Source of the DNA: Frateuria aurantia DSM 6220
GTDB taxonomy: Bacteria; Pseudomonadota; Gammaproteobacteria; Xanthomonadales; Rhodanobacteraceae
NCBI RefSeq assembly: GCF_000242255.2
Contig: NC_017033.1
Location: 2,863,110-2,927,109 of the forward strand
Reading direction: 5' to 3'
DNA length: 64,000 bases
Every line of letters begins with the position of its first letter. Within the stretch, counting starts at the first letter, position 1. The notes beneath the pieces were generated by a model that was given only the letters and a program-made list of their open reading frames with translations, had not been told where the DNA came from and ran no database searches. A program made the translations under genes and the position numbers. Shown piece after piece: positions 23,781-33,423 of this stretch.

Positions 23781-24193
23781 CGGACCATGCTGTCAGTGAC
23801 GGAGGGGAAGATCGGCGCGGACGCCGTTCGCTGGCCCGATAGTAGCACTACATCCCGCCTGCGACAGGATGATGCACCGCAACAGGCAGCGGTCGGACGG
23901 CCATTCGCAACAACTCGCGACACCCTGCCCATACGCTGCTTGCGGCGCAAGCCATGCCGGCACGACCGATGGCCATGACGGATATCACCCCATGGGCGGC
24001 CCTCGGCCGGTCATAAACGCATATCGACCTTGCCTGCCACCGGCCGACCCGCCACAACATGCTGCCCGCCCTTCCGGGCATGCGATTCAAGGCTTGGATC
24101 GGTGACCTCAAAGTCTGGATCGATGGTCGCGTTCCGCCGCTGCCGTCAGATCCGGCCAGGTATCGTACAGCCCGTCCCCGCCGCCGGACGTGC
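23781..24193. other. 413-bp intergenic region upstream of maeB, nothing recognised
   Basis: It lies between the maeB start and the rsgA stop, both minus strand, so a maeB promoter is expected. Frames here lack ribosome binding sites and read as Arg/Pro/His-rich noise. I see no strong hairpin, repeat or RNA gene. Confidence 0.5.
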
Positions 24194-25243
24194 TCAGTCC
24201 TCGTTCCGGCCGCGCGGCTTGTGGCGCGTCCGGGTCGTGCGATGGTCGCGCTGACGTTTCAGTCGCGCTTCCATCACCAAGGCCTGCTGCTCGCGCTCCT
24301 CGTTGAGCTTGAGATAATGCTGCCAGCGCTTGAGACCGAGCTCGCCGCTGGCCAGCGCCGTCTGGATCGCGCAGCCGGGCTCGTTCTGATGACCGCAGTC
24401 GGAGAACCGGCATTGGCTGGCCAGCACCTCGATATCGGCGAACAGTTCCAGGTTTTCTTCACCGGTCAGCTTCAGCTCGCGCATGCCCGGCGTGTCGATC
24501 AGGCAACCGCCGGTGGGCAGCTGCAGCAGTGCCCGCGACGTGGTGGTATGCCGGCCGCGACTGTCGTGCTGACGGACCGCTCCGGTAGCCAGGCGGGCAT
24601 CGCCCAGCAGGGAATTGGTCAGGGTCGATTTGCCCGCCCCGGAGGAGCCGACCAGCACGGCACTGTCGCCTTCCTGCAGATAAGGCGTCAGTGCAGCCAG
24701 ACTCTGGACATCCCGGCCGTTCACGGCATGGATAGGCGTGCCCTCGGGCAGGCGTTCGCGCAGCGTGCGCAGCCGCTCCTCGGGGTCCGGGCAGAGATCC
24801 AGCTTGCTCAGCAAGACCACCGAACAGGCCCCTGAGCCCTCGGTCAGTGAAAGATACCGCTCGATCCGGGCCGGATTGAAGTCACCGTCCAGGCCGGTCA
24901 GGATCAGCACGTAATCGATATTGGTGGCGATCACCTGCCGGTCATAGCGCTCACCGGCCGCCGCTCGAGACAGCACCGTGCGCCGAGGCAGGATCCGCAC
25001 GATATGCGGCGGCCTGCCCGCCTCGATCTCGACGAAATCACCCACGGCCGGACGCTGGGCAGGGTCCAGCGTCCGTTTCAGGAAATGCCCGGCCGGCTGG
25101 GCCCCGAATACCGACTCGCCATCGTGCAATTCATAGCCTGCGCGGTGCTGGGCCACCACCCGCGCAAAGCGGCCGGGTGTCAGCGGCTCATCGCCGCGCC
25201 AGCCAATGCGCCGCATGCGGCCCAGAAATTGAAGGTCGATCAT
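24194..25243 (-). CDS. rsgA: ribosome small-subunit-dependent GTPase A
   Basis: 349 residues. An OB-fold (about 25-95) precedes a circularly permuted GTPase domain: G4 SKLD (146-149) comes before the P-loop GSSGAGKST (199-207) and G3 DTPGM. The zinc-binding knuckle CRFSDCGHQNEPGC follows in the C-terminal third, and a very basic tail (RLKRQRDHRTTRTRHKPRGR) suits rRNA contact. RsgA helps late 30S maturation by testing the decoding centre. Transcribed alone on the minus strand, divergent from the alaA-type gene. Confidence 0.95.
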   Translation of the reverse strand: MIDLQFLGRMRRIGWRGDEPLTPGRFARVVAQHRAGYELHDGESVFGAQPAGHFLKRTLDPAQRPAVGDFVEIEAGRPPHIVRILPRRTVLSRAAAGERYDRQVIATNIDYVLILTGLDGDFNPARIERYLSLTEGSGACSVVLLSKLDLCPDPEERLRTLRERLPEGTPIHAVNGRDVQSLAALTPYLQEGDSAVLVGSSGAGKSTLTNSLLGDARLATGAVRQHDSRGRHTTTSRALLQLPTGGCLIDTPGMRELKLTGEENLELFADIEVLASQCRFSDCGHQNEPGCAIQTALASGELGLKRWQHYLKLNEEREQQALVMEARLKRQRDHRTTRTRHKPRGRNED

Positions 25244-25409
25244 TGTGGATGCCGGAAAGATGAAGCCTGGTGCATGGAATGCCTCAGAGCCGCCCGCGCT
25301 TGTTCATGTTGCGGACAGCCCCATGCCTCGCCGCTGGGGAAGGGCACTGATAGCATACAGTACCGTCAAACCGGCAAAAGCCACTCCCCCTCTGCAAGGA
25401 CGCTCGACC

Positions 25410-26651
25410 TTGGCCGCGATCACCCCCAGTCCTCACCTCAAGGACGTGCGCTACGATATTCGAGGCCATCTGGCCAGACGTGCCCGCGAACTGGAACAGG
25501 CCGGCACCGATATCCTGAAACTCAATATCGGCAATCCCGCCCACTACGGCTTCGCCACACCCGAGCCCCTGCGTCTGGCCGTGGCCGGCCATCTGCAGGA
25601 CAGCGAGGGCTATGGCCATGAGCAGGGCATGACCGAAGCACGGGCGGCCATCGCCGAGGTGCACCGGGCGCGGGGCAGTCACGGCGTGGATGCCGAGCAT
25701 GTGTTTATCGGCAATGGCGTCAGCGAGCTGATCGACATCAGTCTGCGGGCCCTGCTGCGGCCGGGTGACGAGGTGCTGCTGCCCAGCCCGGATTATCCCT
25801 TGTGGACCGCTTCGACCCATCTCAACGGCGGCAAGCCACGCTATTACAGCTGCCCGGCCGAGCGCGGCCATCTGCCTGATCCCGACGAAATCGAGGCCCT
25901 GATCGGTCCGGCCACCCGCGCCATCGTGCTGATCAACCCCAACAATCCCACCGGTGCCGTCTACCCGCGCGCCTTGCTGCAGCAGATCGTCGAGGTTGCC
26001 GCGCGCCATCGGCTGCTGCTGCTGAGCGATGAGATCTACGACGACATCCGCTTCGACGACACGCCGATGCAGCCGCTGGCCGAGCTGTGCGGCGAACTGC
26101 CCTGCATCAGCTTCGGCGGCTTGTCCAAGGTCCACCGGGCCTGCGGCTACCGGGTCGGCTGGATGGTGCTGTCCGGTGCCCATGCCCGCACGGCGGCCTA
26201 TCGCGATGCCCTGCAGTTGCTGTCGGCGCTGCGGGTGTGTCCGAACATTCTGGCGCAATGGGCCATCATCCCGGCGCTGCAAGGCGCACCCACCATCCAG
26301 GCGCTGACCGGCCCCGGCGGGCGGCTGGAAGCCACCCGTCAGGCCATCATCGAGGAGGTCCGGCGCAGCGACTATCTGCAGATGGTCTCGCCGCTGGGCG
26401 CGCTGTATGCCTTCCCGTCGATCAGCAGCCAGCGTCTGCCCGGCTTCGACGACATGGCCTTTGCCGTGTCGCTGCTGGAGCACGAGCATGTCCTGCTGAC
26501 CCCGGGCAGCAGTTTCAATCTGGCGGGCAGCCGGCATCTGCGGCTGACCTTGCTGCCGCCCGCCGGACTGGTGGCCACCGTGTTCGAGCGGATCGAGCGG
26601 GCGCTGCAGCGTTGCGAAGCCGAAGCCTCGCTCCGGCAGGCCGTCGCATGA
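25410..26651 (+). CDS. alaA: alanine-type aminotransferase, AlaA-like
   Basis: 413-residue fold-type I PLP aminotransferase closely resembling E. coli AlaA. The N-terminus (LKDVRYDIRGHLARRARELE) matches. Also visible are LNIGNPAHYGF, GNGVSELI, the NPNNPTGA block (176-183), D207 and the PLP lysine K240 in FGGLSKVHRACGYRVGW. It makes alanine from pyruvate and glutamate. No ATG fits: a TTG at 25410 with AAGGA nine bases upstream gives the right N-terminus, while the frame open to 25245 adds non-conserved sequence. Four-base overlap (ATGA) with the downstream SGNH hydrolase indicates translational coupling. Confidence 0.9.
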   Translation: MAAITPSPHLKDVRYDIRGHLARRARELEQAGTDILKLNIGNPAHYGFATPEPLRLAVAGHLQDSEGYGHEQGMTEARAAIAEVHRARGSHGVDAEHVFIGNGVSELIDISLRALLRPGDEVLLPSPDYPLWTASTHLNGGKPRYYSCPAERGHLPDPDEIEALIGPATRAIVLINPNNPTGAVYPRALLQQIVEVAARHRLLLLSDEIYDDIRFDDTPMQPLAELCGELPCISFGGLSKVHRACGYRVGWMVLSGAHARTAAYRDALQLLSALRVCPNILAQWAIIPALQGAPTIQALTGPGGRLEATRQAIIEEVRRSDYLQMVSPLGALYAFPSISSQRLPGFDDMAFAVSLLEHEHVLLTPGSSFNLAGSRHLRLTLLPPAGLVATVFERIERALQRCEAEASLRQAVA

Positions 26652-27271
26652 GCTCCCGGCCACGTCGCTATCTGGCCCTGGGCGACTCCTATACCATCGG
26701 CGAAGGCGTGACCGAGGCCGAGCGCTGGCCGGCACGGCTCGCCGCGCAGTTGCAGGCGGCCGGTCTGGTGCTGGATCCGGTCCGTTATCTGGCGACCACA
26801 GGCTGGAGCAGCGATGAGCTGGCTCAGGCCATCAGCGCAACCGCGCTGCCCGGCCCCTGGGACCTGGTCAGTCTGCTGATCGGCGTCAACGACCAGTATC
26901 GCGGCCATCCTGCCGCCTCCCGGCGGTCACTGATCGCCGACCTGATCGAACGGTCCGTCATGCTGGCCGGTGACCGGACACGGGTGCTGGCAGTCTCGAT
27001 TCCCGACTGGTCGGTCACGACCTTTGCCCGCGACAGCGGCCGTGACCTCGCCGCCATCGCCGGCCAGATCGATGCCTACAATGCCATGATCGCCGGCCTG
27101 TGCGCCTCGGCGGGCGTAGCCTGGATCGATGTCACCGCCTGTTCCCGCGCCCATCCCGACGAGCTGGCGGCCGACGGCCTGCACCCCGGCGCGGCGCAAT
27201 ACCTGCGCTGGGCCGAAAAGCTGCTGCCCGAAGCGCTGCAGGCACTGCAGCAGCCGTCCGGCTCCCGCTGA
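26648..27271 (+). CDS. SGNH/GDSL-family hydrolase
   Basis: 207 residues, no signal peptide, so probably cytosolic. Block I is LALGDSYTIGEG with the catalytic Ser14, block III is the Asn in LIGVNDQYRG, and block V is DGLHPG with the Asp/His pair near the C-terminus. Gly of block II lies around TTGWSSDEL. Members are esterases, lipases or acylhydrolases; the substrate is not readable. Its ATG overlaps the alaA stop (ATGA), so the two are co-translated, though no metabolic link is obvious. Confidence 0.88.
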   Translation: MSSRPRRYLALGDSYTIGEGVTEAERWPARLAAQLQAAGLVLDPVRYLATTGWSSDELAQAISATALPGPWDLVSLLIGVNDQYRGHPAASRRSLIADLIERSVMLAGDRTRVLAVSIPDWSVTTFARDSGRDLAAIAGQIDAYNAMIAGLCASAGVAWIDVTACSRAHPDELAADGLHPGAAQYLRWAEKLLPEALQALQQPSGSR

Positions 27272-27367
27272 ATCGCTGGCGCCGCAGGATTGCCACGCGA
27301 CTGTCATCGCCTCGCGATCTGAACCGGCCAGTCTGCCCGCGAGTCAGGTCACGACAGGGGCTCCAGC

Positions 27368-27660
27368 ATGGAAGATGTGCATCGCCGCACAGCCTTCCTG
27401 TCCGATGCCCACCTGGGCACGCCGGGCTGCCAGGCCGAACTGCGGCTGGACTTTCTCAGGCACCTGCATTGTCGCCAGCTGTATCTGGTCGGCGACATCA
27501 TCGATCTCGGGGCCTTGCAGCGGCCCTCTGGCGGCAGGCCAGCCACAGCCATGCCGAACTGCAACGGCTGGCCCGGGCTTCAGCCGGACTGAGCGCTGCA
27601 TCGGCTGATCGGCAGGCCAGCAGGCCCGATCCGTCACGGATTTCCTGCCCGCTCCCTTGA
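27368..27660 (+). pseudogene. frameshifted, truncated UDP-2,3-diacylglucosamine-hydrolase-like metallophosphoesterase
   Basis: From ATG 27368 about 50 codons read as the start of a YbbF/LpxH-like calcineurin phosphoesterase: TAFLSDAHLGTPGCQAEL, then LYLVGDIIDLGAL, holding the first two metal motifs (D-x-H and G-D-x-x-D). Near 27515 homology jumps frame: the frame ending at 27660 continues with ALWRQASHSHAELQRLARA, the expected next helix. The GNHD motif and the whole C-terminal two-thirds are missing (family length about 240-280). It is therefore a dead gene with at least one frameshift and a deletion. The rest of the gap 27272-27836 holds nothing else I recognise. Confidence 0.75.
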
Positions 27661-27836
27661 ATCCCGCCGGGCCGGCCTGCATATCAGCCGGAACTGACCG
27701 CTCGATGCGGACTCCGGAACCGGCTGATCCGGTGGCGGCCACGGCTCGCCATCGGGTCAGCCGGCCTGCAGCCCGCGTTGTCCGACCTGCCCTGTTGTGG
27801 CCTAATTGGCCGCCTGTCCTCCCGCTGGAGCATCCC

Positions 27837-28760
27837 ATGTCCCTCGCCACGCCGGTCCGCGACCGTATCGAAAGCCTGCTGAAGGAGCACCGCGTCGTGC
27901 TTTTCATGAAAGGCACCCGCCACGCCCCGCAGTGCGGTTTCTCCGCCGCGGTGGCGAATATCCTCAACGACATCCTGCCTGACTACCACACCGTCAATGT
28001 GCTGGAAGACCCGGAAATCCGTGAAGGGATCAAGGAATACGGCCAGTGGCCGACGATTCCCCAGCTGTATGTGGACGGTGACCTGCTGGGCGGCGCCGAC
28101 ATCGTCCGGCAGATGTTCACCAGCGGTGAGCTGTACACCCTGTTCGGCGTCGCACCGCCGGACCGTACCCCGCCCGAGATCACCATTACCGACAAGGCCG
28201 CCGAGGCGATCCGCCAGGGCACGGCCGATGCGTCCGGCCTGGCCCTGCATCTGGAAATCGGTCCGAACTACCAGGCCGGGTTCCAGCTGGCCCCGGCCGG
28301 TGCCACCGACATCGTCGCCGTGTCCAACGGCATCGAAGTGCATTTCGATCCCTCCAGCGCCACCCGCGCCAAAGGCATCGTGATCGACTGGGTCAGCACC
28401 GTGCAGGGCGAAGGCCTGAGCCTGAAGTTCCCCGGCGCGGTCGAGATCCATGCCCTGACCGTGCACCAGCTGAAGCAGCGTCTGGAAGCCGGTGACATCA
28501 CCTTGATCGATGTCCGCCCGGCCGAGGGCCTGGCCGCCGCCGCGCCCCTGCCCCAGGCCCGCCTGCTGGACAAGGAAGGCTATGAAGCCTTGTCGGCCCT
28601 GCCCAAGGACACCGAGCTGGCCTTTATCTGCCACCACGGCATTTCCAGCCGCAACGTCGCCGAGCGCTTCGTAGCCCATGGTTTCACCAAGGTCTACAAC
28701 GTGGAAGGCGGCATGGATGCCTGGGCCCAGTACATCGACAGCAGCGTGCCGCGCTACTGA
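27837..28760 (+). CDS. monothiol glutaredoxin – IscA-like – rhodanese fusion protein
   Basis: 307 residues in three parts. Residues 1-105 form a Grx4/GrxD-type monothiol glutaredoxin with the CGFS site at 33-36 and IPQLYVDGDLLGGADI. Residues about 112-203 look like an A-type Fe-S scaffold (EITITDKAAEAIRQ, VSNGIEVHFDP, IDWVSTVQGEGLSLKFPGA), but this segment contains no cysteine. Residues about 204-307 are a rhodanese domain with active-site C265 in FICHHGISSRN. This suggests a role in iron-sulfur cluster trafficking or sulfane-sulfur transfer. The start is the ATG beginning MSLATPVRDR; the upstream frame is noise. It is followed by a strong terminator. Confidence 0.9.
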   Translation: MSLATPVRDRIESLLKEHRVVLFMKGTRHAPQCGFSAAVANILNDILPDYHTVNVLEDPEIREGIKEYGQWPTIPQLYVDGDLLGGADIVRQMFTSGELYTLFGVAPPDRTPPEITITDKAAEAIRQGTADASGLALHLEIGPNYQAGFQLAPAGATDIVAVSNGIEVHFDPSSATRAKGIVIDWVSTVQGEGLSLKFPGAVEIHALTVHQLKQRLEAGDITLIDVRPAEGLAAAAPLPQARLLDKEGYEALSALPKDTELAFICHHGISSRNVAERFVAHGFTKVYNVEGGMDAWAQYIDSSVPRY

Positions 28761-28799
28761 TCGATCCGTACCTGCCGTGCGGCACTGCCGGACGGACCC

Positions 28800-28830
28800 C
28801 GACAAGCCCGGGCCCTGCCCGGGCTTGTCG
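28800..28830. terminator. hairpin terminator between the glutaredoxin fusion and the SDR gene
   Basis: Perfect 14-bp stem (CGACAAGCCCGGGC at 28800-28813 with 28817-28830) and a 3-base loop, between convergent genes. Very stable, though without a long T-run. Confidence 0.7.
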
Positions 28831-28887
28831 CATGCGGCGCGGGCAAAAGGCGACCGACTCCGACGGAGCCGGCCGCAGGCATGAACT

Positions 28888-29667
28888 CTAGAATCCCAGG
28901 CTCATGAAACCGCCGTCCACCGCCAGTACCTGGCCGGTGACGTAGCTGGAAGCCGGCAGGCACAGAAAGGCGATCGCGGTGGCGACCTCCTCGGGCTCGG
29001 CCACTCGTCCCAGGGGCGTGCGATCCACCACCTCCTGGTAATACTCCGGCTCATTCAAGGCCGCCTCGGAACGACGGGTGCGGATATACCAGGGTGCAAC
29101 CGCATTGACGCGGATTCCGCTCTCCGCCCATTCCACCGCCAGATTGCGGGTCAGCTGATGCAGCGCCGCCTTGCTCATGCCATAGGCCGAGCCGGTGCGG
29201 ACATGGCTCAGACCGGCGACGGAACCGACATTGACGATGGCGGCATCGTCCTGGGTCACCAGATATTCAAATGCCAGCCGGCTCATCTCGAAGGCCGAAA
29301 ACAGATTCAGCTCGAAAATCGCCCGCACATCGTCGGTGGCGTAATCCAGGGTGGCCTGAGGCTGGTTGCCGCCGACATTGTTGACCAGCAGCGAAATCGG
29401 CGAACCCAGGTCGGCGATCCAGTCGAAGACCGCCAGCCGCTCATCCTGATCCGAGAGATCGGCACTGTAGACCACGACATCGAGATCCTCGAATTCAGCC
29501 TCCAGCTCCTGTTTCAAACGCTCCAGCGCCAGCGGATCACGTGCCACCAGCCGCAGATCGGCGCCCAGTCCGGCGAATTCACGGGCCGTGGCCAGACCGA
29601 TGCCATGACTGGCCCCGGTGATAAGTGCGGTATGCCCCTGCAGGGTCCACGCGGAGGACTCCGCCAT
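28888..29667 (-). CDS. SDR-family oxidoreductase (tropinone reductase-like)
   Basis: 259-residue classical short-chain dehydrogenase. The cofactor motif is TGASHGIG (17-24), with NNVGG, the catalytic Ser in VNVGSVAGL and the YxxxK pair in [10 protein letters not shown], followed by AVAPWYIRT. The C-terminus ([18 protein letters not shown]) is the usual SDR ending. Overall it resembles the plant/bacterial tropinone-reductase-like group, whose bacterial substrates are mostly unknown. The start at 29667 has AAGAGG upstream; a longer frame to 29757 reads into the divergent promoter region of the ABC ATPase gene. Confidence 0.85.
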
Positions 29668-29783
29668 GCTCTGTGCCTCTTGACTGGAATAGACGGCGGC
29701 ATGGTGCCACAAAGCGGGCGCCACGAGCAGCCGGCAGCCGGTCGGGGCTTGCATCACGATCCGGCCTGCGGCACTGTGGCGCG

Positions 29784-30599
29784 ATGACTGATACCGGCAC
29801 GGCGCCTCCTCTCCTGCTGCAATTGGCCCATGCCAGCGTGCAACGCGAGGGTCGTCCTATCCTGGACGATCTCAGCCTGCAGATCGCCCTGGGCGAGCAC
29901 ACCGCCATTCTGGGCGCCAATGGCAGCGGCAAGTCGACCCTGGTCAAGCTGATCACCCGCCAGATCTATCCGCTGGCCCGGCCTGAAGGCGAGCCGGTAC
30001 TGCGGGTCCTTGGCCGCGAACGCTGGAGCGTCGTCGAGCTGCGTTCCCGGCTCGGTATCGTCTCGCCCGCCATGCAGACCGACTTTACCAGCGAGACCCC
30101 GCTGGAAGTCTATGATGCGGTGATTTCAGGCTTTTTCGCCGCCCGCGGACTGGGCCTGGACCACCAGGTCACGCAGGCCATGCATCAGGCCGCGCGCGAA
30201 GCCCTGGATCGGGCCGGTGCCAGCCATCTGGTCGGCCGGATGATGGCCGGGCTGTCGACCGGCGAAGCCCGCCGGGTGCTGATTGCCCGTGCGATGGTGC
30301 ATCGTCCGCTGGCCCTGCTGCTGGACGAGCCCTGCGCCGGCCTGGATCTGGCCAGTCGCCGGGACTTTCTGGAAAGCCTGCGCCAGCTGGCGCGATCGGG
30401 GACCACCTTGCTGCTGGTCACCCACCATATCGAGGAAATCCTGCCGGAAATCGGACGGGTGGTGATGCTGCGTCAGGGCCGGCTGGTCGCCGACACCGAC
30501 AAGGCGCAGGCCCTGACGTCCCGTCAGCTTGGCGAGCTGTTCGATACGCCGGTCACGGTGACGTCGCGAGGTGACTGGTTCTGGGCGGCACTGGACTGA
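29784..30599 (+). CDS. ABC transporter ATP-binding protein
   Basis: 271 residues, a single nucleotide-binding domain: Walker [10 protein letters not shown], a Q-loop region near [10 protein letters not shown], signature LSTGEARR (a degenerate LSGGQ, as in ModF/YlmA-like ATPases), Walker B ALLLDEP and the switch His in LVTHH. No permease or binding protein adjoins it, so it may partner a distant membrane protein or act as a soluble ModF-type ATPase. The ATG at 29784 is 116 bp from the divergent SDR start. It converges on sppA across a short terminator. Confidence 0.85.
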
Positions 30600-30611
30600 A
30601 GCCCCGGTCCG

Positions 30612-30637
30612 GGATGCGCCATCCGGCGCATCCTTTG
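30612..30637. terminator. hairpin terminator between the ABC ATPase and sppA genes
   Basis: 9-bp stem GGATGCGCC (30612-30620) with 30625-30633, a 4-base loop, then TTTGG on the plus strand. It fills the 42-bp gap between two convergent stops. Confidence 0.7.
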
Positions 30638-30641
30638 GTCA

Positions 30642-32522
30642 TCAGTCCGGCTGGCACATGCACCAGGCATAGACGTTTGGACGCCCGGCTCTGGCCTGCT
30701 GCAGCAGGCCCAGTTCCGGCGCGGCATGGCTGAGCCGGCTCAGCTGCAGCAGCCAGCCCGGCAGCTGCCAGCCTGATCCCTGCAGCGACAGCACCATGGC
30801 ATCGTCGCTGAGACTGCCGGCCAGCCGCTGCACCAGACCACCACGAGCCGCGATATAACGCAGCGGTGCCGTTGCCGGCAGATGGGCCTGCTGCCGCGCC
30901 CAGGCAATCGCCTGGGTCTGATCGCCCAAGGCATCCACCAGCCCGTGCTGCAAGGCTTCTCGGCCACTCCAGACCCGCCCTTGGGCGATCGCATCGATCT
31001 GCTGGTAGCTCTGGTGCCGGGCCTGTGCCACCCGGCTGACGAAGTCGAAATAGCCGCGATTGATGACGGACTGGACCATGTTGCCGACCCTGGGATCCAG
31101 CGGCCGGGTCACGTCGAAAGCCCCGGCCAGAGGACCGGTGCTGACCCCGTCACTGCGCAGACCCAGCTTGCCGATGGCCGTCGGCGCCGAATAGTACATG
31201 CCGAAAATGCCGATCGAGCCGGTGATGGTGGTCGGATCGGCAAAGATCCGCTGGGCATTCATCGAGATCCAGTAGCCGCCGCTGGCCGCCACATCGCCCA
31301 TCGACACCGCCACCGGAATCCCGGCCTTGCGGGTCAGCGCGATTTCACGCCGGATCTGCTCGGCGGCAAACACCTCGCCACCGGGCGAGTTGACCCGCAG
31401 CACCAGAGCCTTGGTGGTTTTGGCTTCACGCGCGCGACGGATCAGCGCGGCCGTGGACTCGCCGCCGATCTTGCCGGCCGACTGTTCGCCGCCCACGATA
31501 TCGCCTTCGGCGATGATGACCGCCACCCCGGGGCGCTGATCGGCGGGATTGACCGGCGTGCGGGTCAGGCTGGCATAACGCTCCAGCCGGATCTGGCGAA
31601 AGCCCTTGCCCTGCCGTCCCGCCGGCACACCCTGGACACGCAGCTGGTGGATCAGCTGATCTTCGGTGACCAGCTGATCCACCAGCCGGCTCTTGACCGC
31701 CAGCGTGGCGGTATCGCCACCCGCGGCACTGATCAGCTCGGGCGCCTGCTCGGTGCTCTTGCGCAGCTGATCGGGCGCGATCTTGCGCAGGCCGGCCACC
31801 TGGTCGAGATAGCTGTTCCACAGATCCCCCATCCAGTCGCTGTCGGCCGCCTTCGCCGCGTCGGAAGCATGATCGAGGACAAAAGGCTCGGCCGCGCTCT
31901 TGTACTGGCCGACCCGGAACAGATGGACATCGATGCCCAGCTTGTCCAGCAGGCCTTTGTAGAAGAGCCGGTAATTGGACAGGCCGGTCAGCATCACGCT
32001 GCCCTGCGGATCCAGCAGGATCCGGTCGGCATGCGCGGCCAGCAGATACTGCCGCTGGTCGTAACTGGCGGCCCAGGCCAGCACCGGCTTGCCATGCGCA
32101 CGGAAACGATCCAGCGCGGCACCGACTTCCTGCAGATTGGCAAAACCCGCGGCACTGAGGTCATCCGGCAGCAGCAGCAGACGCGTGATCCGCGCATCGG
32201 TCGCGGCATGGTCGATGGCCGCGATCAGGTCGCGGACCTGGATCTGACCCGAGGGCTGGCCCTGCAGACCGCTGAAGGCCCGCTGCAGGGGATCCAGGCT
32301 GTATTGTTCGACCAGCTCGCCCTCGGGCTTGAGCACCAGCACCGTGCCCGACTGGATCACCCCCGCCTGGTGATGAGCCGCGACGCCGACCAGCAAGGCC
32401 AGCAACAGCACGGCCAGCAAGCCGAAGAACACCAGGTTGATGATGACCAGGCGCGTGGCATTCAGGCCACGCCCCAGCCAGCGGACAAACGGTACAAATC
32501 CACGCTCGCGCGGTTGCATCAT
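30642..32522 (-). CDS. sppA: signal peptide peptidase SppA, 67K type
   Basis: 626 residues, the long two-domain form. One N-terminal transmembrane helix (about 25-48) anchors it facing the periplasm. The Ser/Lys dyad of S49 peptidases is present: K208 in VGQYKSAAEPF and S414 in DVAASGGYWIS; VNSPGGEVFAAEQIRR precedes the serine. It degrades signal peptides left in the membrane. AAGGA precedes the paired ATGs at 32522/32519, while the frame open to 32633 is Cys/Arg-rich noise. It is divergent from the two-component system, sharing a 235-bp intergenic region with it. Confidence 0.93.
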   Translation of the reverse strand: MMQPRERGFVPFVRWLGRGLNATRLVIINLVFFGLLAVLLLALLVGVAAHHQAGVIQSGTVLVLKPEGELVEQYSLDPLQRAFSGLQGQPSGQIQVRDLIAAIDHAATDARITRLLLLPDDLSAAGFANLQEVGAALDRFRAHGKPVLAWAASYDQRQYLLAAHADRILLDPQGSVMLTGLSNYRLFYKGLLDKLGIDVHLFRVGQYKSAAEPFVLDHASDAAKAADSDWMGDLWNSYLDQVAGLRKIAPDQLRKSTEQAPELISAAGGDTATLAVKSRLVDQLVTEDQLIHQLRVQGVPAGRQGKGFRQIRLERYASLTRTPVNPADQRPGVAVIIAEGDIVGGEQSAGKIGGESTAALIRRAREAKTTKALVLRVNSPGGEVFAAEQIRREIALTRKAGIPVAVSMGDVAASGGYWISMNAQRIFADPTTITGSIGIFGMYYSAPTAIGKLGLRSDGVSTGPLAGAFDVTRPLDPRVGNMVQSVINRGYFDFVSRVAQARHQSYQQIDAIAQGRVWSGREALQHGLVDALGDQTQAIAWARQQAHLPATAPLRYIAARGGLVQRLAGSLSDDAMVLSLQGSGWQLPGWLLQLSRLSHAAPELGLLQQARAGRPNVYAWCMCQPD

Positions 32523-32646
32523 GACGGGAAAATCCTTCAAACAGGCAGGCCGGCAACGGAGCGGCATCGCTGGAATTACGTCACAGCCCCGGAGCTTGCG
32601 CAAGCCTGCCCCTTGGCAGGGTGCCGCCCACATCAGCCCACATGGC

Positions 32647-32662
32647 CTAAGCCAAGGCTAAG
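32647..32662 (+). promoter_or_regulatory. 11-bp-spaced direct repeat, candidate OmpR-family response-regulator site
   Basis: CTAAG at 32647-32651 and again at 32658-32662. The spacing of 11 bp start-to-start puts both half-sites on one face of the helix. The flanks also match in part (GGCCTAAGCCA versus AGGCTAAGGCA). It lies about 95 bp before the response-regulator start and between divergent genes, so autoregulation, and perhaps control of sppA, is plausible. Confidence 0.4.
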
Positions 32663-32757
32663 GCAGGTATGCCAAGCTGGAACCTCCGGACTGTGCCGAT
32701 CAGCGACCCGCACGGACGGATGCGCCCCTTGTCCGCCGCTACGGAGCCTTGCCCGCC

Positions 32758-33423
32758 ATGCATATCCTGGTCTTGGAAGATGACATCCCGCTGGGACATG
32801 CCATCGAGCAGGCCCTGAGCCGACAGGCTTATACCGTCACCTGGTTGCGCGAAGGGTCAGCCGGACTGCACGCCATCCGTGACCGCAGCGCCGATCTGGT
32901 CCTGCTTGATCTGGGGCTGCCGGGCAAGGATGGCATGGAGCTCATCAAGAGCGCCCGCCGCGCCGACATCAAGACGCCGATCCTGGTCATGACCGCCCGC
33001 GATGCCGTGGCGGCGCGGATCCAGGGTCTGGACGCCGGCGCCGATGATTATCTGGTCAAACCCTTCCATCTGGACGAGCTGATCGCCCGGATCCGCTCTC
33101 TGGCCCGTCGCGCCCATGGACTGGCCGCCAACCGGATCGAAGTCGGTGCACTGGCCATGGACCTGAGTCACGGCGAGGTCATCCATCGCGGCAAGCCGGT
33201 GGAGCTCAGTCGTCGCGAATTCGCCCTGCTGCAATCATTGATGGAGCAGGCCGGCCGCATCGTGCGCAGGGAAAGCCTGGAACACTCGATCTACGGACTG
33301 GACCCGGTCATCTCCTCCAGCGCGCTGGAAGTGCTGGTCCATCACCTGCGCCGCAAACTGGGCTTTGATGCTATCCGCACCGTCCGCGGCTTCGGTTACA
33401 TGCTGCCCCGCGCGCCCGACTGA
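32758..33423 (+). CDS. two-component response regulator, OmpR/QseB-like
   Basis: 221 residues. Receiver domain: acidic pocket E9-D10-D11 region (LVLEDDIPLG), phosphoacceptor D51 in LLLDLGLPG, Thr in MTARD and K101 in LVKPF. A winged-helix DNA-binding domain follows (about 128-218: LSRREFALLQSLM, then VLVHHLRRKL and IRTVRGFGYML). The start MHILVLEDD has GGAG eleven bases upstream; a TTG nine bases earlier has no spacing for it. The kinase gene begins seven bases after the stop, so they are one operon. The signal is unknown; QseB/PmrA/TctD-like regulators respond to envelope stress, metals or carboxylates. Confidence 0.92.
   Translation: MHILVLEDDIPLGHAIEQALSRQAYTVTWLREGSAGLHAIRDRSADLVLLDLGLPGKDGMELIKSARRADIKTPILVMTARDAVAARIQGLDAGADDYLVKPFHLDELIARIRSLARRAHGLAANRIEVGALAMDLSHGEVIHRGKPVELSRREFALLQSLMEQAGRIVRRESLEHSIYGLDPVISSSALEVLVHHLRRKLGFDAIRTVRGFGYMLPRAPD

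Follow-up and report, generated by a model that had tools for sequence, protein, structure and literature searches.

A glutaredoxin–rhodanese fusion whose A-type middle domain lacks the cluster-ligating cysteines

Glutaredoxins (Grx) and A-type proteins cooperate in the trafficking of Fe-S clusters; how they meet is less clear. In the window, the whole stretch of 64,000 nucleotides of Frateuria aurantia DNA analyzed here, one gene joins a glutaredoxin to an IscA-like domain devoid of cysteines and then to a rhodanese. We asked what this middle domain is, whether its lack of cysteines is a stable property of the family, and what such a domain could do for the glutaredoxin to which it is tied.

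The original prediction of a glutaredoxin–IscA-like–rhodanese fusion was borne out by the translation of the open reading frame (307 amino acids and a stop codon) and by Pfam and fold matches for all three domains (Table 1). When the whole protein was searched, the Pfam Glutaredoxin family scored 66.8 bits (cut-off, 22.9) and PF00581 (Rhodanese) 53.7 bits (cut-off, 22.2). The N-terminal domain scored 130 bits against the NCBIfam model TIGR00365 (cut-off, 117.1) and has the CGFS motif, which places it in the Grx4 class, and it shares the fold of Grx5 and Grx4; the fusion differs from GrxD/Grx4 proteins by its two extra domains. The C-terminal domain is a rhodanese by its PF00581 match, by the presence of GlpE among its fold matches, and by a catalytic cysteine in a short loop; GlpE (1gmx) was the top-scoring solved rhodanese by sequence (E 2.6e-8), with a Foldseek E of 1.3e-6. 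In the linker between the first two domains, P108, D109, R110, P112, and P113 were invariant in 28 aligned fusions.

Table 1. Features of the fusion gene, in positions of the window
Feature	Position	Strand	Basis
Whole gene, Grx4-type glutaredoxin / cysteine-free A-type / rhodanese	27837..28760	+	ORF translation, Pfam, relatives
CGFS monothiol glutaredoxin domain, residues 1-103	27837..28145	+	TIGR00365; Foldseek human Grx5, E. coli Grx4
CGFS active-site motif, C33 (CGFS = 33-36)	27933..27944	+	CGFS in 94/94 fusions
Conserved linker G...PDRTPP, residues 104-113	28146..28175	+	Invariant residues in aligned fusions
Cysteine-free A-type (HesB/IscA fold) domain, residues 114-200	28176..28436	+	Pfam, profile, fold, alignment
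Rhodanese domain, residues 204-300	28446..28736	+	PF00581; GlpE by sequence and Foldseek
Rhodanese active-site loop CHHGISS, C265	28629..28649	+	C265 in 94/94 fusions

In the search with the whole protein, PF01521 (Fe-S_biosyn) matched the middle domain over residues 114-195 with 24.9 bits, just below its cut-off of 26.3, while the domain searched alone exceeded that cut-off with 28.4 bits; 24 of 25 middle domains, the one from the window included, matched PF01521 at an E of 10 or less. A profile built from the 25 domains and compared with solved structures hit 1nwb (E 2.1e-8), HI1723 (1.6e-5), and IscA (1.7e-5) and, weakly, DsrR (E 0.1), and the alignment of the fusion A-type profile with that of A-type carriers gave an hhalign E of 1.9e-17. 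The best 50 Foldseek matches of the full-length model (mean pLDDT, 89; pTM, 0.62) were glutaredoxins, both monothiol and of other types, along with rhodaneses (GlpE, for instance) and larger proteins; they included no A-type chain, so the fold of the middle domain was judged from a model of that domain and from the profile. The AlphaFold2 model of the domain alone (mean pLDDT, 82) had IscA, SufA, HI1723, AQ_1857, a Lactobacillus Fe-S biosynthesis protein, and DsrR in its first ten Foldseek matches, at E values of 3.3e-6 to 1.8e-3. The first four rows of the VIA comparison ranged in Z from 11.5 to 12.4; E. coli IscA gave a Z of 12.4 (rmsd 1.8, 91 residues aligned), and VIA-align gave 12.2 for DsrR (rmsd 5.9, 102 aligned) and 11.5 for SufA (rmsd 2.9, 99 aligned). 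The middle domain thus has the A-type (HesB/IscA) fold. This assignment, which had been laid open beforehand to refutation by structure prediction, withstood it in view of the IscA match, the profile, and PF01521; the segment proposed for it (about 112-203) was correct as an A-type segment, with its best bounds shifted to about 114-200.

The assignment bears on an earlier description. A 2009 survey of glutaredoxin fusions (Alves et al., PMC2679010) describes, in its passage on them, CGFS-class bacterial "frataxin-rhodanese-GRX" proteins and suggests a connection with Fe-S metabolism. That the middle domain is a frataxin is scarcely credible, since a Pfam search of 28 fusions that admitted E values up to 10 gave no frataxin family and the sequence, profile, and fold matches all favor A-type proteins; no frataxin appeared in the listed Foldseek and VIA matches either, an absence that by itself excludes nothing. 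We infer that the proteins of the survey probably belong to the family described here, so that the triple architecture was probably noted in 2009 with its middle domain mislabeled, a label that the A-type assignment would correct.

The middle domain shares the fold and profile of IscA, ErpA, SufA, and the nif-type IscA but not their ligands. The claim that all three cluster-ligating cysteines are absent proved right: the window protein has no cysteine in residues 104-204, the position of the first ligand falls opposite a four-residue gap of the fusion in the profile alignment, i.e., the loop is shortened, and the domain stops at the "NPN" position, ahead of the CGCG tail, where a linker into the rhodanese follows instead. 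The set of ligands by which an A-type carrier is recognized, the loop cysteine plus the C-terminal CGCG, is therefore missing from it. Among 94 distinct full-length fusions, the middle domain had no cysteine in 92 and a single one in 2, at residues 147 and 163 in the numbering of the window protein. Both are out of register with the ligands in the alignment, although 147 lies only a few residues past the former ligand loop. At 70% non-redundancy, 19 of 21 fusions had no middle cysteine and 2 had one. These observations support the view, drawn from sequence, that the domain would be unable to bind a cluster as A-type carriers do. It could still hold iron or a cluster through other ligands or together with C33 of the glutaredoxin, and an aspartate at residue 142 in 18 of the 21 non-redundant fusions might be read in this sense. 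The window protein, however, has a glycine there, no histidine or cysteine is conserved in residues 140-151 of the 21, and both the shortened loop and the missing CGCG tail speak against such binding, which we consider very unlikely.

The outer domains, in contrast, keep their cysteines as predicted: CGFS and C265 were each present in all 94 fusions and in all 21 of the non-redundant ones. These counts derive from 154 sampled loci, of which 134 matched the window protein and gave 114 distinct proteins; the 94 are those of at least 290 amino acids that matched at both ends, with truncated and glutaredoxin-only rows left out. The 63 named loci supplied 27 sequences to alignment A1 and 24 to alignment A2, with one (L051) dropped from A1 for a stop near its end.

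Loss of ligands could mean a domain in decay. Over 150 pairs of fusions of 78 to 95% identity, the A-type domain had a median dN/dS of 0.124, compared with 0.161 in the glutaredoxin and 0.239 in the rhodanese; the A-type value is not above that of the glutaredoxin, and the domain is under purifying selection rather than in decay. The conservation across homologues by which the idea was to be checked is thus found, and the data support the cysteine-free middle domain as a widespread, selected trait. Among 26 divergent fusions, the mean identity was 60% for the glutaredoxin, 43% for the A-type domain, and 44% for the rhodanese, so the A-type domain is less conserved than might be expected of a shared docking face, a point against docking. 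The stronger drift of the A-type sequence than of the glutaredoxin across the order, together with a set of most conserved residues that includes positions of the fold (the IDW and GxGL segments, for example), would suit a purely architectural part, either a spacer that holds the glutaredoxin and the rhodanese a given distance apart or a unit that pairs fusions, with no contact with clients. A-type proteins are oligomers, which fits pairing. A plain linker would not need so low a dN/dS, though, and we regard an architectural role as unlikely, all the more so in view of the proteins described next.

Four members of the family (L064, L293, L294, and L295), of about 205 amino acids, consist of the glutaredoxin and the cysteine-free A-type domain and end just past the latter, without a rhodanese. 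A domain retained where the rhodanese has been lost does more than keep the two others apart. No glutaredoxin-rhodanese fusion without an A-type domain occurred among the matches listed, and the glutaredoxin and the A-type domain therefore look like the inseparable core of the fusion, with the rhodanese as an accessory. The passage on these fusions in PMC2679010 reports that a GRX joined to only one of frataxin and rhodanese was not found, whereas here four such proteins with the A-type domain exist. The same four bear on the idea that the fusion is mainly a persulfide or redox enzyme, in which C265 would carry a persulfide that the glutaredoxin and glutathione reduce or pass on, Fe-S clusters being secondary. 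The invariance of C265 and the ranking of GlpE as the top solved rhodanese by sequence agree with it, but the four are otherwise intact without a rhodanese, and the rhodanese evolves the fastest of the three domains. Moreover, CGFS glutaredoxins of the Grx4 class are generally poor reductases. Such an enzyme seems to us more doubtful still than an architectural role.

The fusion is common in the order. Of the 63 named loci, 59 matched over residues 1-300 or more, with Dyella, Luteibacter, Frateuria, Fulvimonas, and Lysobacter among their genera; one lacked the rhodanese, and three matched over the glutaredoxin only. In an order-wide sample, 391 of 398 genomes matched the window protein at an E of 0.001 or less. 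Among the matches listed, the best E was 1e-50 or lower in 375 of the 398, while 16 were weaker and 7 had none; this count is a reading of the match table, and a match of that strength need not mean all three domains: the fusion of G322 is split, and G212 and G216 are near the limit. A stand-alone Grx4 only was found in some genomes of the order (e.g., G002, G005, G015, G019, and G340). In a phylum-wide sample, nearly the whole length was matched in 10 of 398 genomes, all of the order, and 24 more matched at an E of 1e-40 or less through the glutaredoxin end only. Sampling 369 genomes across the class added one family (f104) with two confirmed fusions (G609 and G489; loci L103 and L104), the sole ones confirmed outside the order in these samples; since their domains nest within those of the order in the trees, they reflect either transfer or a taxonomic neighbor. 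A fusion 75% identical to that of the window, within the range of the Dyella type, also occurred in a sequence labeled Candidatus Eremiobacteraeota (L033), probably a mislabeled bin.

We then considered where the A-type domain came from. The fusion domains formed one clade (support, 100/100) in a tree built from 87 A-type domains, and the best tree grouped this clade with ten stand-alone, cysteine-bearing A-type genes (100/87), a grouping that the sampling favors, since the ten had been selected as the top hits to the fusion domain. The A-type domains of NfuA formed a separate clade elsewhere (100/99), and two further A-type-like domains without ligand cysteines (L113 and L115, from G480 and G603; family f95) a third. 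Cysteine loss in the fusion and in NfuA was therefore likely independent, as far as a tree with long branches and few columns can indicate. A single loss shared with NfuA is not favored by the best tree, and the AU test did not reject one clade of fusion and NfuA domains (P = 0.199, or 0.129 with L113 and L115 added).

Eleven neighborhoods of sister A-type genes were fetched, and the A-type gene was called in six; in four of these six (L213, L216, L221, and L222) it adjoins a gene that, from its sequence, we take to be NifU-like. No such gene was recognized in L215 or L223, and L214 and L217 to L220 fall outside this count. According to the part of PMC9866876 on nif clusters, those of A. vinelandii contain iscA-nif, rhdN, and grx5-nif, which together with the nifU-adjacent sister genes led us to test a nif origin for all three domains. 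A nif cassette as the source of the whole fusion was rejected, because its glutaredoxin and its rhodanese each grouped with none of five nif-linked or nif-type counterparts; the nif affinity is kept by the A-type part only, with the biased sampling described above. The fusion glutaredoxin fell apart from most gammaproteobacterial glutaredoxins and, at a fork with a support of 99/93, joined six glutaredoxins that lie outside the class together with a stand-alone one of the order; the six had been chosen for matching the fusion well, and the sampling again favors the grouping. In four loci (L259 to L262), a rhodanese gene and a CGFS glutaredoxin gene lie close together on the same strand and resemble the rhdN-grx5nif pair of A. 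vinelandii as it is given in PMC9866876; three of their four genomes (G636, G658, and G579) also carry an A-type gene belonging to the group next to the fusion domain in the tree.

The host genome (3.6 Mb in one contig) shows what the fusion could work with. PF01521 matched four places in it, namely two cysteine-bearing A-type proteins (L001 and L002), the A-type end of NfuA (L003), and the fusion domain, the names of the first three being assigned from their sequences. There are two SUFBD places and two BolA places. The IscU/NifU_N domain had no match in this genome and was found in 12 of 14 control genomes. With SUFBD present and NifU_N unmatched, Fe-S assembly in the host looks SUF-based, and the two A-type proteins, NfuA, the two BolA proteins, and the products of the two SufB/D places are possible partners of the fusion. 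A second Grx4, stand-alone and of 109 amino acids, is encoded at G000:C1:2365867-2366157 on the minus strand, so the fusion may do a different job from GrxD. The neighbors of the fusion gene encode RsgA, a class I/II aminotransferase, a GDSL lipase, a short-chain dehydrogenase, an ABC ATPase, and an S49 peptidase; ORFs for the first three were matched in 42, 46, and 30, respectively, of the 63 named loci, some of whose flanks were cut. None of these neighbors is an Fe-S gene, and the context thus gives no direct hint; no Dsr protein was among the six neighboring proteins scanned. An alignment of 59 upstream regions, among them that of the window gene, showed no IscR-like operator by eye, only short promoter-like stretches; a consensus search found no promoter-like site for the fusion gene, and Rfam gave no match at gathering score in positions 24000-33000.

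What, then, could an A-type domain without ligands do for a glutaredoxin? Ligand loss in A-type proteins is known as a kind. The closest precedent is NfuA, because its A-type domain, which lacks the ligand cysteines, targets it to apo-proteins (in the portions of PMC8593673 and PMC11327457 that deal with NfuA). Like the fusion, NfuA sets an A-type fold without working ligands beside a cluster-carrying domain, and the host also encodes it; the carrier in the fusion, however, is a CGFS glutaredoxin and not Nfu, of which Pfam detected no domain in 28 fusions, and a rhodanese follows. DsrR is, by the title of Grimm 2010 as cited in PMC11406059, an IscA-like protein without Fe-S binding, and the fusion domain resembles it in fold; DsrR, in contrast, stands alone and is tied to the regulation of sulfur oxidation, whereas the domain described here is part of a fusion. 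The claim that such an arrangement is rarely discussed consequently stands for this fusion alone and not for degenerate A-type domains, which NfuA and DsrR represent in well-described form, while a triple fusion was reported in 2009. The words "fusion" and "rhodanese" do not occur in the main text of the A-type survey PMC7144353, and no experimental study of the fusion was recognized among the papers listed by a literature search conducted mostly at the level of titles and first lines.

For the glutaredoxin side, PMC11327457, in the sections concerned, has E. coli NfuA interacting with client proteins and GrxD replenishing clusters to ErpA, and the interaction data of PMC2447459 include a two-hybrid interaction of yeast Grx5 with Isa1. 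Taken together with the targeting by NfuA, these make it most likely that in the fusion the glutaredoxin holds the cluster and the A-type domain meets the partner or apo-protein. The role we favor, with moderate confidence, is that of a monothiol-glutaredoxin [2Fe-2S] carrier with its own docking module and a sulfur-handling tail. The glutaredoxin would hold a [2Fe-2S] cluster through C33 and glutathione, as E. coli GrxD does; the A-type domain would carry none and could instead bind the partners of A-type proteins, either ErpA/SufA or client apo-proteins; once it is docked, the glutaredoxin would pass the cluster on locally; and C265 of the rhodanese may supply or remove sulfane sulfur nearby. 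Docking by the A-type domain is plausible by analogy with these systems.

The fusion would then be a natural construct that separates the binding of partners from the carrying of clusters, with an A-type domain tied to a glutaredoxin and stripped of its cluster site. Should this domain turn out to dock ErpA or apo-proteins, the fusion would offer a ready-made tool for mapping the recognition surfaces of A-type proteins. More tentatively, A-type carriers may on several independent occasions have become docking domains that hold no cluster, and the order may have fixed one of them in its glutaredoxin, yielding self-targeting [2Fe-2S] delivery in a SUF-only cell; the glutaredoxin and the A-type domain would then form a core that stays together, and the rhodanese a sulfur-handling tail that can be shed.

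The fusion gene is overlapped in its entirety by a 373-amino-acid antisense ORF (27684-28805, minus strand), which we read as the shadow of a coding sequence of high G+C content, and two terminator-like stems lie within the gene on the other strand. In G322, a one-contig genome, the fusion is split (L226, G322:C1:1360000-1376000; minus strand, about 1367437-1368358): an ORF for the glutaredoxin and one for the A-type domain plus rhodanese overlap in different frames, as a result of either a real split or a sequencing error.
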